From a virus, in IMG/VR virus record IMGVR_UViG_3300045452_000028, positions 1 through 38,153 of that record: a DNA stretch of 38,153 nucleotides. One strand, written 5' to 3'. The translations under genes were made by a program, and so were the position numbers. Position 1 is the first letter of the stretch. Every line of letters begins with the position of its first letter. A model generated the notes under the pieces. The model did no database searches, was not told the origin of the DNA, and worked only from the letters and a program-made list of their open reading frames with translations. Shown here in pieces: positions 56-16,075 of the stretch.

Positions 56-181
56 ATTGGTTGACGAGACTTTACCAAAGCCCGGGGGACAGCCTGTGGA
101 AAACCTCGGCCGGGCGAGAACATATACAGAACAGTTACAGTAACGGACCTCATCGACCTGGGCGGAAGTGGGAAAGGAGAG

Positions 182-564
182 GCGCCAGACGGCCTGTAAG
201 CCGGGTTCTGTACCCGCCCGGGGGCGGGTGACGATCATTCCTCTGGACCGCCCATCGCTGGGCGGTTCTCGCGACCTACCCGGGCGTCTCGGGCGGTGAA
301 CCCTGCGGACCGGAGTCCGCGCGACGCCCCTATTCGGTCTTGCTCCAGGCGGGGCTTGCCATGCCGGCCGCGTTACCGAAGCCGCGGTGGGCTCTTACCC
401 CACCCTTTCACCCTTCCCGGCCCCGCAGGGCCGGAGGTTTGCTTTCTGTGGCGCTATCCCTCGGGTCACCCCGGGCGGGCGTTACCCGCCGCCTTTTCAC
501 CGTGGAGCCCGGACTTTCCTCGACAGGGCGAACCCCGCCGCGACCGCCCGGCCGTCTGGCGGGC
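182..564 (-). ncRNA. rnpB: RNase P RNA, class A (rnpB)
   Basis: This is the catalytic RNA subunit of RNase P, which matures the 5' ends of tRNAs. On the minus strand the conserved block GAGGAAAGTCCGGGCTCCAC lies close to the 5' end, and ACAGAACCCGGCTTA followed by the P1 3' strand closes the molecule. The P1 helix is directly visible: the plus-strand segments 550-561 and 183-194 are perfect 12-nt reverse complements. About 380 nt is normal for an alphaproteobacterial class A RNA. The exact ends are uncertain by a few bases. Predicted reading frames across this interval are shadows of the structured RNA. Confidence 0.95.
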
Positions 565-6875: not shown

Positions 6876-6951
6876 GGGCCCGTAGCTCAATGGTTAGAGC
6901 CGACCGCTCATAACGGTCTGGTTGGGGGTTCGAGTCCCTCCGGGCCTACCA
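6876..6951 (+). tRNA. tRNA with CAU anticodon (probably tRNA-Ile2, possibly tRNA-Met)
   Basis: A 76-nt cloverleaf: acceptor GGGCCCG pairs with CGGGCCT (one G-U), D arm with GTAGCTC...GAGC, anticodon stem GACCG/CGGTC with loop CTCATAA (anticodon CAU), T arm GGGGG-TTCGAGT-CCCTC, and an encoded CCA end. CAU can be elongator methionine or the lysidine-modified minor isoleucine tRNA. The acceptor sequence suggests Ile2, but I cannot decide without comparison. The gene is the left boundary of the prophage: its 3' end faces the integrase gene 68 nt away. Confidence 0.95.
6933..6951 (+). other. Presumed left attachment site (attL core in tRNA 3' end)
   Basis: Tyrosine recombinases of temperate phages often integrate in the T arm and 3' end of a tRNA gene, with the phage restoring the end. 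Here the integrase gene lies immediately beyond this tRNA and phage genes fill everything to the right edge. The matching right copy would lie outside the window, so the core length is not established. Confidence 0.5.
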
Positions 6952-14046: not shown

Positions 14047-14501
14047 CACGCGGCCCTCGACGGCATCGGCCAAGTCAGCGCCGGGTTGTGGCGGAACGCG
14101 GCGACCGGCTCGATGTGAGACCCGACCTTGCCCTCAACGACACCGCCGCCTGGGATGCTGTGAATGAAGCGCGAGTTGCCTCCGTCCGGCCAGATCAGCA
14201 CCGCGACATGGATCCCTTCGCGGGCCATGTAGCGCATCCGGGGAACCCAGAACGCGATAACGTCGCCGGGCTTGGCCTCGACCACATCAATGCGCTCACA
14301 CAGCATGGCGCGGAATGATCGCGCCGCCATACTAGACAGACCGCAGTTGCTTCGTGGGGGCGACACCGACGACCCCAGCGCGTGAGCGACCACGCCCCAT
14401 GCATCGTAATGGTCCGGGCCGTGGCCATCTACGCGCCACGGCTTGCCGATCAGGGACGCAGCGCGGGCGACGATTTCGTATCTGTTGGCGGCGGTTGACA
14501 T
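14046..14501 (-). CDS. NlpC/P60-like protein lacking the catalytic cysteine
   Basis: A 151-residue protein with the layout of phage NlpC/P60 (papain-like) domains: SLIGKPWRVDGHGPDHYDAWGVVAHAL, then VEAKPGDVIAFWV, then GIHVAVLIWPDGG with the expected histidine (H98). At the position where these enzymes have D-C-W/S-G, this protein reads Y-D-A-W-G, so the catalytic cysteine is alanine (A34). If the alignment is right it cannot hydrolyse peptidoglycan and may instead be a binding or scaffolding protein. Its location in the early recombination operon rather than the tail module is also unusual. Confidence 0.6.
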   Translation of the reverse strand: MSTAANRYEIVARAASLIGKPWRVDGHGPDHYDAWGVVAHALGSSVSPPRSNCGLSSMAARSFRAMLCERIDVVEAKPGDVIAFWVPRMRYMAREGIHVAVLIWPDGGNSRFIHSIPGGGVVEGKVGSHIEPVAAFRHNPALTWPMPSRAA

Positions 14502-14989
14502 CAGCGCATGGCCTCCATCAGGCGTTGACCGACGATGGCGACCGGCTCCGGCCGGCGCTCGTGAACCTCCTGCGGCGCCGCGTTCTTGTCGCGGGACAGG
14601 TGCTCCAGGAGGCCCAGGACCGACAGTTCGGCGTTGGCCTTCCGCGCCGCGTCGGGCGACAGGCTGTTCTGGCGAGAGGTGGCGAACCGGATCAGCTTCC
14701 CGGCCTTGCGCGCCTTGCGCTTGATCGCGCTCCGGGCGGTCGAACCGATCGTGTGAGCGTCCTCAGCGGCGAGGCGGACATAGCCCTTGCCCCGCTCATT
14801 GCCGAAGATCGCGCCGTGATCGCGGGCGGCGACATCCATGGCCCTGAGGACGAGCCAGCGATGCTCACCGCGCACGTCGCGGCCGACCACGGCGGTCAAG
14901 GCGCCATAGGACACCAGATCGCCGGGCTTGCTGTCGATCAGCCGCTCCACCAAGGCGGCCACGTCGGGAGAGATTTCAGTCGAGATCAT
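14501..14989 (-). CDS. Phage protein, possible winged-helix DNA-binding protein
   Basis: A 162-residue basic protein. The N-terminal half (LIDSKPGDLVSYGALTAVVG, then LVLRAMDVAARDHGAIFGNE and GKGYVRL) matches the helix-turn-helix-wing rhythm seen in a group of small phage proteins with a G-R-D-V/P-x-G...V-x-G-x-G-x-x-R-L pattern. A lysine/arginine cluster (SAIKRKARKAGKLIRFA) follows. Its start codon lies directly after the long pentamer repeat array, so the array is its leader. DNA binding is inferred, not shown. Confidence 0.7.
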   Translation of the reverse strand: MISTEISPDVAALVERLIDSKPGDLVSYGALTAVVGRDVRGEHRWLVLRAMDVAARDHGAIFGNERGKGYVRLAAEDAHTIGSTARSAIKRKARKAGKLIRFATSRQNSLSPDAARKANAELSVLGLLEHLSRDKNAAPQEVHERRPEPVAIVGQRLMEAMR

Positions 14990-15153
14990 TGCGATGCCTT
15001 GTGCTGAGATGCGCTGCGCAGCGAGGCGAAGCCGAGCGGCGAGATGCGGAGCGGAGGGTCGTTGCGTTGCGTTGAGATGCGGAGCGGCAAGTAGCGGCGC
15101 GAAGCGGCGCGATGCGACGCAAAGCGGGACGGTGCGCTGCGAGGCGTATCCAT
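14986..15153 (-). CDS. Repeat-encoded 55-residue reading frame
   Basis: An ATG at 15153 overlaps the stop of the 197-residue gene (TGATG), and its stop overlaps the next start by 4 nt. The frame therefore fits the operon's coupling pattern. It is encoded entirely by the 5-nt-period array, giving a low-complexity protein rich in Arg, Ser, Ala and Leu (MDTPRSAPSRFASHRAASRR...). It may be a true small protein or simply a way for ribosomes to cross the array and reinitiate at the next gene. I favour the second view, weakly. Confidence 0.4.
   Translation of the reverse strand: MDTPRSAPSRFASHRAASRRYLPLRISTQRNDPPLRISPLGFASLRSASQHKASQ
14991..15148. repeat. Degenerate pentanucleotide array A (consensus GCGNN on plus strand)
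   Basis: The plus strand reads as two blocks of uninterrupted 5-nt units: 13 units at 14991-15055 and 17 units at 15064-15148, separated by 8 nt. Positions 1-3 of the unit are mostly GCG (21 of 30 units exactly, others such as GAG, GCC or GCA), whereas positions 4-5 vary freely. No indel breaks the period inside a block. Read in the transcript direction the unit is NNCGC. The array fills the space between the 197-residue gene and the following gene exactly. It differs from CRISPR arrays in having 3 fixed and 2 variable bases per unit. Confidence 0.85.
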
Positions 15154-15746
15154 CACGCCACCAGCTGGCGGTTGTCCTGCCAGTCCAGAGCCGTGATCTT
15201 GAAGCGGCCGTTCGTGCCGCCCTTCTCGGGGCGGAAGCGGCCGATGCCGATGAACATCCCGGCGATCTCGACCATCTCCCGGAACACGTCTTCGGTGATG
15301 ATCGGATCGAGGATGTAAACGTCGAAGGTCGTGGACCACTCGTTGATCACGGGAAACCGGCGCGGGACACGCTTGCCAGAACCGCGCACGCCGTCTGAGT
15401 TGGCCGAGATGGTGACGCAGGTCACATCGTCCGGGCTGACGCCGAGGCTGGGGCTTTCAACCAGCATGACGCCAGCGAGAAACTTGGCAGTCCAAGTCGC
15501 CTTGCCCTGACCGGGGATCTGGCGCTTGGAATACTTGGCGGCTGAGGCGAAGGCCTGCATCAGGCCGTGAGCCGGAACCACGACAACCGGCCGCCCGTCG
15601 CGGGTTTCGACGTTCAGCTTCTCGCGCCACGTGCGGGCGTCGTAGGCGTCCCTGTCCTCGCCCTCCAGCATCGGCGCGTCGTGCTGCCGAGACTGCGAAT
15701 AGGGGCTGACCGAGGACAGTGTGAGGCGGGCGATAGAGGTTTTCAT
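15153..15746 (-). CDS. Array-associated phage protein, possibly RAMP/Cas7-like
   Basis: A 197-residue protein. It opens with strand-like MKTSIARLTLSSVSPYSQSR and a conserved-looking block DAYDARTWREKLNV (residues 33-46). VPAHGLMQAFASAAKY (58-72) looks like a helix and FDVYILDPIITEDVFREMVE (141-160) a strand-turn-helix. Close to the C-terminus is a glycine-rich loop, FIGIGRFRPEKGGTNGRF (165-182). I recall similar proteins in other prophages, with the same loop and often next to repetitive sequence, of unknown function. The glycine-rich loop after a beta-alpha unit is reminiscent of RAMP (Cas7/Cas5-type) RNA-binding proteins, but no family can be proven by eye. It is bracketed by pentamer arrays on both sides, whose RNA would be on the same transcript. 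Confidence 0.7.
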   Translation of the reverse strand: MKTSIARLTLSSVSPYSQSRQHDAPMLEGEDRDAYDARTWREKLNVETRDGRPVVVVPAHGLMQAFASAAKYSKRQIPGQGKATWTAKFLAGVMLVESPSLGVSPDDVTCVTISANSDGVRGSGKRVPRRFPVINEWSTTFDVYILDPIITEDVFREMVEIAGMFIGIGRFRPEKGGTNGRFKITALDWQDNRQLVA

Positions 15747-16075
15747 TTGTCAGAGCCTTGCGTTGAGTTGAGACGCGGAGAGCTGCGGAGCCGAGCGGCG
15801 AGAGCGGCCCGGCACTTCGCAGCGCCCGTTTCATGCTCCCAGATGCCGTAGGAGTCGCCGAGTTGGACGTATTGCGCGTGGCGCTCGATATGGCGCGCCA
15901 GACGCGCCCGCACGGTCGGGATGTGCTGCATCTCCGCCGCCGCCAGTTGAGCCCGACAGCGATCCATCGCCGCCGTCAGCTCTGCATCCCAGCGGCTTTG
16001 GTTCGCCAGGTAGGTCAGGTGATCCTTGAGCCGCGCAATCTCCGCAGCGGCCTTGGCTTGATCCGGGATCGGCAT
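15743..16075 (-). CDS. First gene of leftward operon, helical protein of unknown function
   Basis: A 110-residue protein starting MPIPDQAKAAAEIARLKDHL, with a GGAGG ribosome site 7 nt upstream. Residues 1-75 are helical and rich in Ala, Arg and Leu. The last roughly 20 residues (ALAARLRSSPRLNSTQGSDK) are encoded by pentamer array B, so the end of the protein looks like a by-product of the array. Its stop overlaps the start of the 197-residue gene. It lies about 20 bp downstream of the presumed left promoter. Confidence 0.7.
   Translation of the reverse strand: MPIPDQAKAAAEIARLKDHLTYLANQSRWDAELTAAMDRCRAQLAAAEMQHIPTVRARLARHIERHAQYVQLGDSYGIWEHETGAAKCRAALAARLRSSPRLNSTQGSDK
15755..15804. repeat. 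Degenerate pentanucleotide array B
   Basis: Ten uninterrupted 5-nt units on the plus strand, all beginning with G and mostly GCGNN, GAGNN or GCCNN. The array lies immediately before the start codon of the 197-residue gene in the transcript direction. Units GCGGA, GCCGA and GCGGC occur in the same kind of order as in array A at 15031-15055, so the two arrays probably share ancestry. Confidence 0.8.

Follow-up and report, generated by a model that had tools for sequence, protein, structure and literature searches.

Pentamer guide arrays of a probable prophage-borne VIPR system of CNC/NN type, with candidate targets in phage head genes

Introduction

What could strictly periodic 5-nt repeats be doing on both sides of one small phage gene? 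The question is raised by a viral DNA record of 38 153 nt (IMGVR_UViG_3300045452_000028, positions 1–38 153; the whole stretch is called here ‘the window’), in which three blocks of degenerate pentamers bracket a gene for a 197-aa protein. A preliminary description of the window had seen in the array RNA or ssDNA a possible ligand of this protein, or of a nearby RecT-like annealase, and had stated that no described system was known to show such an arrangement. The latter statement proved wrong: the same arrangement is found in VIPR (Viral Interference Programmable Repeat), which a 2026 preprint describes for types from Escherichia phage SUSP1 and from a P. fulva prophage (PMC13142463). There, the phage RAMP protein Vipr is loaded with guide RNAs of triplet/NN structure and reads dsDNA as ‘NN, skip one base’; the skipped base usually is the codon wobble position; a vap gene is included in the system; and satellites as well as competing prophages are repressed (PMC13142463). 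The guides (vrRNAs) are described as 9–16 pentamers GGY/NN ‘or a related consensus’ (fig. S17) followed by a 3′ tail (PMC13142463).

We computed the arrays, homology, protein fold, synteny and target matches of the window locus. It is, very likely, a prophage-borne VIPR system of CNC/NN type with guides aimed at competitors.

Results and discussion

Arrays with period five

On the strand of the gene (minus), which corrects the preliminary description, the arrays read as putative vrRNA guides made of CGC/NN units. Array A3 (14989–15053, minus strand) has 13 units, with guide dinucleotides tc at gc tc tt ct tg ag at ag, after which its constant end enters the start codon of vap. Array A2 (15062–15146, minus strand) has 17 units, with dinucleotides ct ag ac cc tt gt at gc tt gc ta gc tc at and then constant aa aa aa. 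The unit counts of both agree with those given earlier. The weakest block, A1 (about 15758–15797, minus strand), was said to have 10 units; it has about 8–10, 8 of them clear, with dinucleotides (gc) tc tc ag tc gt aa aa aa, and it ends at the ribosome-binding region of vipr. A1 partly overlaps an open reading frame of 110 aa (15743–16075, minus strand; no family found), the C-terminal end of which reads through the array; this frame is possibly a real gene.

In all three blocks deviations from the triplet are few and, as observed before, no indel breaks the period. The lag-5 identity of 14989–15150 is 0.586 versus a shuffled mean of 0.292 (z 7.6), that of 15752–15815 is 0.542 (z 4.0), and in neither case did any of 2000 dinucleotide shuffles reach the value; the strict periodicity is therefore real. 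There is no such signal inside the vipr gene (0.234), and elsewhere in the window no 100-nt stretch has a lag-5 identity above 0.44. Entropies at the five unit positions (24 window units) are 0.50, 0.54, 0.41, 1.90 and 1.68 bits, thus each unit has three fixed and two free positions. Free variation of the dinucleotide, claimed earlier for the blocks at large, is seen in most units; the final three units of each block are near-constant (CTCAACGCAACG-like), unlike the variable units before them. Coding constraint as the cause of the arrays, or as the sole cause of the variable positions, was ruled out: the arrays are intergenic, and the NN entropy is near-maximal.

Blocks A2 and A3 abut, with no structured tail between them; they resemble in this the staggered arrays that the preprint mentions (PMC13142463).

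The Vipr and Vap proteins and the prophage context

The gene between the arrays, vipr (15153–15746, minus strand), encodes a RAMP (Cas7-like) protein of 197 aa with a C-terminal G-loop; assignment was made by phrog_4652, by the profile match to PDB 36pp and by the AF2 fold. While the protein has no Pfam family, it falls into phrog_4652 (2.3e-10), to which SUSP1 Vipr belongs; this family takes in SUSP1 ALH47069.1 (1.4e-96) and LESphi2 P21_9. A profile of 33 homologues aligned by hhalign with the LESphi2 Vipr-like protein (98%, 3e-13) and with SUSP1 Vipr (92%, 6e-7); against PDB this profile found entry 36pp (4.4e-5). The entry (chain D; 6 chains), titled ‘SUSP1 Vipr protein’, is an experimentally solved structure and was matched by sequence profile; it was absent among the results of the fold search, with a library up to April 2026.

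The AF2 model of the window Vipr (pLDDT 86.7, low in loop residues 171–175) has its best structural matches in Cas7 of type VII and in Csm3 (Foldseek 7e-6; VIA Z 11.2). The predicted fold is Cas7/Csm3-like with an RRM core and a G-loop, in line with the RAMP/Cas7-like nature proposed for the protein at the outset; the glycine-rich C-terminal loop noticed then is present as GIGRFRPEKGGTNGRF.

Directly downstream lies vap (14501–14989, minus strand), a position conserved in homologous loci, which codes for an accessory protein of 162 aa with an N-terminal winged helix, as judged by synteny, AF2 and weak profile matches. In the AF2 model (pLDDT 89.3) residues 1–75 match winged-helix folds and a helical tail follows. 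Profile comparison gave weak matches to SUSP1 Vap1 (E 2.8e-4, prob 41%) and to the LESphi2 equivalent (1.2e-4, 55%); BLASTP detected no similarity of the window Vap to SUSP1 Vap1.

The window carries genes of a temperate phage: integrase (PF00589), CI-like repressor, helicases, methyltransferase, terminase, portal, protease and capsid. Its left part should be host chromosome, since an RNase P RNA (181–559, minus strand; Rfam) is followed by a tRNA (6876–6948, plus strand) directly beside the tyrosine integrase gene (PF00589; 7020–8072, minus strand); this tRNA probably is the attachment site. Rfam models at gathering scores found, over nine sources, only these two RNAs of the window and no hammerhead ribozymes, which the VIPR preprint mentions. 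RecT-like and exonuclease VIII-like genes are indeed located downstream, as the annealase and nuclease neighbours described previously; RecT as the ligand of the arrays found no support and was dropped, and RecT is not needed for the system.

Conservation of the locus and turnover of guides

One IMG/VR scan produced 42 loci with vipr homologues, and a genome scan added 5 more, all from Alphaproteobacteria. Counting an array if its lag-5 value exceeded the 99th percentile of background within 350 nt of the gene, we found, among representative loci only, that 32 of 35 have an upstream array and 31 of 33 a downstream one; the association of gene and arrays that had been suspected is thus kept in other phages.

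The triplet is CGC in most loci, L051 from Ancylobacter amanitiformis DSM 15561 being one example, CAC in L023, L027, L031, L036, L039 and L041, CTC in L035 and CGA in L032. The middle base is mixed in L024, L030 and L049, where the outer Cs have near-zero entropy and the NN positions 1.7–2.0 bits; the Rhizobium-type loci L037, L038 and L050 have degenerate CNC-like arrays only (L050 by eye). As the middle base varies among loci and the outer Cs are kept, the scaffold is better written CNC/NN. Triplet types are clustered on the Vipr tree (7 changes versus 11.6 in shuffled data).

Close relatives differ in their guides. L012 and L015 have 100% identical vipr genes and two identical upstream guides, and the downstream guide is wholly different; the swapped guides stand directly 3′ of vipr (L012 1480–1534, L015 6596–6675). 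Between L012 and L013 (99.0%) both upstream guides differ. The guides turn over as whole units, faster than vipr, in a cassette-like replacement.

In a group of relatives (L001, L002, L003, L005, L025, L033 and L040) the region after the array forms two hairpins of 22 pairs, nine of them compensated, which is expected of an RNA tail; a combined alignment of spacers of the L024 type and of the L009/L034 type gave no consensus fold.

Several other arrangements were seen. Around a single vipr, L024 (5920–8149) has 12 consecutive CGC/NN arrays, mostly parted by strong hairpins whose tips vary and which share a ...CGGGTCGAGAG end. L041 (6995–7349) has four tandem near-identical CAC/NN arrays with a few units inserted or changed, as if guides were growing by slippage or duplication. 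In loci without a hairpin tail (L012, L020, L028, L011 and L013) the motif GATTYGTTTG comes directly after CGCAACGCAAC at array ends; it is probably the vrRNA tail or end signal of such hairpin-less loci.

Candidate targets of the window guides

IMG/VR was scanned with the skip-1 pattern of each array, requiring nine exact units (18 bases); across IMG/VR skip 1 was the only spacing scanned, and skips 0, 2 and 3 were compared on the target set. The A2 pattern had a single match, which extends to 26 contiguous guide bases; it covers units 2–13 completely and units 1 and 14 by half, leaving the constant aa units unmatched. The site lies in a gene for a portal protein of 401 aa (PHROG portal, 8e-89) on a 16.4-kb contig, L060, that also has genes for an integrase and a tape-measure-like protein. 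The A3 pattern hit one site in the related contigs L053, L054 and L056, besides one unrelated, unextended and chance-like match in L055. The shared site lies in the major capsid gene (PF05065, 6.9e-29), and the match there extends to 20 contiguous bases. For A1 there was a weak match of 6 out of 6 units in L056. Judged by these matches, support for the putative target is strong for A2, moderate for A3 and weak for A1.

At both the A2 and the A3 site the 1-nt skip falls, in frame, on codon position 3 (wobble). More distant satellites keep the capsid peptide LILQSNEAIE; L064, L065 and L067 retain 18 of the 20 A3 guide bases, with every skip base differing in L067, and the two mismatches of these three fall at a serine, encoded by TCN instead of AGY (codons by eye). 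On the target set, skip 1 scores 26 and 20, and skips 0, 2 and 3 as well as 284 shuffled guides score at most 15; with the set picked by skip-1 matches, this comparison illustrates the rule rather than proves it.

One could argue that the matches arose by chance and that the real targets are elsewhere. Guides of other loci gave none or unextended matches: there were no IMG/VR matches for L036 a3 (CAC), L035 a2 (CTC) and L005 a4 (CGC), and L036 a1 (CAC) matched one family, without extension and chance-like. In these scans 18-base chance matches occur, about one independent match per three scans, but do not extend; the scans being unconvincing, the support for the skip rule is confined to the window’s CGC guides. 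Against chance for the window guides, an assumed 1e11 bases would give only about 4e-5 fortuitous matches of 26 contiguous bases (and about 0.18 of 20 bases), and both sites are wobble-phased and both are in phage head genes. We regard a chance origin as very improbable; by computation, the window guides would recognize foreign targets with a 1-nt skip.

Other searches were negative. No self-target was found, and the window’s own portal is divergent and unmatched; 141 guides compared with 1.24 Mb of the homologues’ own loci gave no signal above shuffled guides; and 240 alphaproteobacterial genomes contained no match.

The same matches bear on a second alternative, in which the arrays serve as DNA sites for protein binding or as linkers for recombination (RecT annealing or mosaic junctions), with uninformative dinucleotides. 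The arrays do sit at gene junctions with RecT-like and exonuclease genes nearby, and loci with identical vipr may differ by the swap of one array; however, in-frame skip-1 matches of 26 and 20 bases to foreign head genes, dinucleotides of near-maximal entropy, compensated tail helices in relatives and an association with vipr conserved across phages all argue for guides, which makes this alternative extremely improbable. Homology to VIPR together with the target matches supports the early idea of array RNA as the ligand, with informative dinucleotides.

A third possibility is a VIPR-like RNP that pairs with target mRNA (antisense silencing) and not with DNA. Both well-supported guides, A2 and A3, are complementary to the coding strand, that is, to the mRNA, and the best structural matches of Vipr are RAMPs of types III and VII, which bind RNA. 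Yet one orientation in two or three guides can be chance, and for SUSP1 VIPR, the relative with experimental tests, dsDNA binding was shown as well as silencing by guides on either strand (PMC13142463). We consider mRNA pairing unlikely.

The elements that carry the A3 site

The A3 target element, of about 10 kb, has genes for capsid, portal, protease, head–tail adaptor, terminase, HNH, helicase-like ATPase and integrase; it adjoins a RecJ-like gene, and this gene looks chromosomal. L053, L054/L061 (4507–14194), L056 and L064–L067 make up one family of roughly 8–11 kb, alphaproteobacterial in appearance, with genes for integrase, helicase, HNH, terminase and HK97-type head proteins. The genes listed for capsid-forming PICIs are those for a capsid of their own, protease, portal, connector, terminase, HNH and integrase, with no tail (PMC10690885). 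L053, L054 and L056 have the gene content of this list, with no separate small terminase subunit identified in the three; the family is consistent with capsid-forming satellites.

Proposed mechanism and significance

With the VIPR reading preferred, the locus could work as follows. Transcription of the intergenic arrays on the gene strand would yield vrRNA guides, each with 9–14 [CGC]NN units and then the near-constant end, next to which a structured 3′ tail would come in relatives. Vipr subunits would hold each 5-nt unit by its fixed triplet and expose its two free bases; the complex would read DNA in the pattern NN-skip-NN-skip, passing over the codon wobble base, and would silence the target with assistance from Vap. 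The window guides would be directed at head genes (portal and major capsid) of rival integrative elements, a capsid-encoding phage satellite among them. By analogy with the other VIPR types of the preprint, we propose transcription, RNP assembly, DNA binding and repression here.

VIPR as a kind has already been described; new are the CNC/NN code, the whole-guide replacement between loci with identical vipr and the candidate targets in satellite head genes. A non-contiguous guide code, for which a single 2026 preprint had been the only source (PMC13142463), is thereby supported independently from raw sequence: despite a different scaffold triplet, the skip rule predicts in-frame, wobble-phased foreign targets in head genes. 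The natural CGC, CAC and CTC variants make scaffold recognition by Vipr testable, and close pairs with swapped guides do the same for guide acquisition; no Cas1-like adaptation gene is in view. We put forward, tentatively, a distinct CNC/NN type of VIPR, with a lineage-dependent middle base (CGC, CAC, CTC), cassette exchange of guides and head genes of satellites as targets; if it is true, the Vipr residues that read the scaffold and the route of guide acquisition become approachable.

Comparison with known systems

With Cas7 and Csm3 of class 1 CRISPR systems (types III and VII) the window Vipr shares the RAMP/RRM fold with a G-loop, and a guide-RNA filament would be expected of it. However, the window has a 5-nt repeat code and a single small protein, without a CRISPR array or Cas1, Cas2, Cas5, Cas6 or Cas10. 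Identity with CRISPR-Cas was rejected, as the arrays are 5-nt degenerate repeats and the immediate neighbourhood has neither cas genes nor a CRISPR repeat–spacer array.

Another related locus is that of Pseudomonas phage LESphi2 (OQ594955), where P21_9 is homologous to Vipr (tblastn, 38.7% across 62 aa; hhalign, 98%), the next gene, P21_8, is Vap-like, and arrays lie upstream of the Vipr-like gene on the gene strand. These arrays are GGY/NN, and P21_9/P21_8 are nearer to SUSP1 (38% identity) than to the window. This VIPR locus (L043 4190–4510) is unannotated.

In SUSP1 itself, ALH47069.1 and ALH47068.1 are flanked on either side by GGY/NN arrays, which read on the gene strand. The window differs from the VIPR of SUSP1 and the P. 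fulva prophage in its family triplet, CNC (CGC, CAC or CTC, with CGA also in a relative) instead of GGY, so that only the pyrimidine before NN is kept; in a Vap without BLASTP-detectable similarity to SUSP1 Vap1; in arrays that abut without a structured tail; and in having portal and capsid genes as putative targets. It agrees with VIPR in a RAMP protein homologous to Vipr and of the same PHROG; in tandem 5-nt repeats (within the range of 9–16 units) of fixed triplet and hypervariable NN, on the gene strand and on both sides of vipr; in a small DNA-binding-type Vap downstream, a conserved winged-helix gene with weak homology to SUSP1 Vap1; and in the 1-nt skip at the wobble position, with candidate targets in satellites and competing elements. 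As the preprint permits ‘a related consensus’, the non-GGY triplet bears on the type of VIPR and not on membership; the type is probably CNC/NN, which may or may not belong to the seven types described there (PMC13142463).
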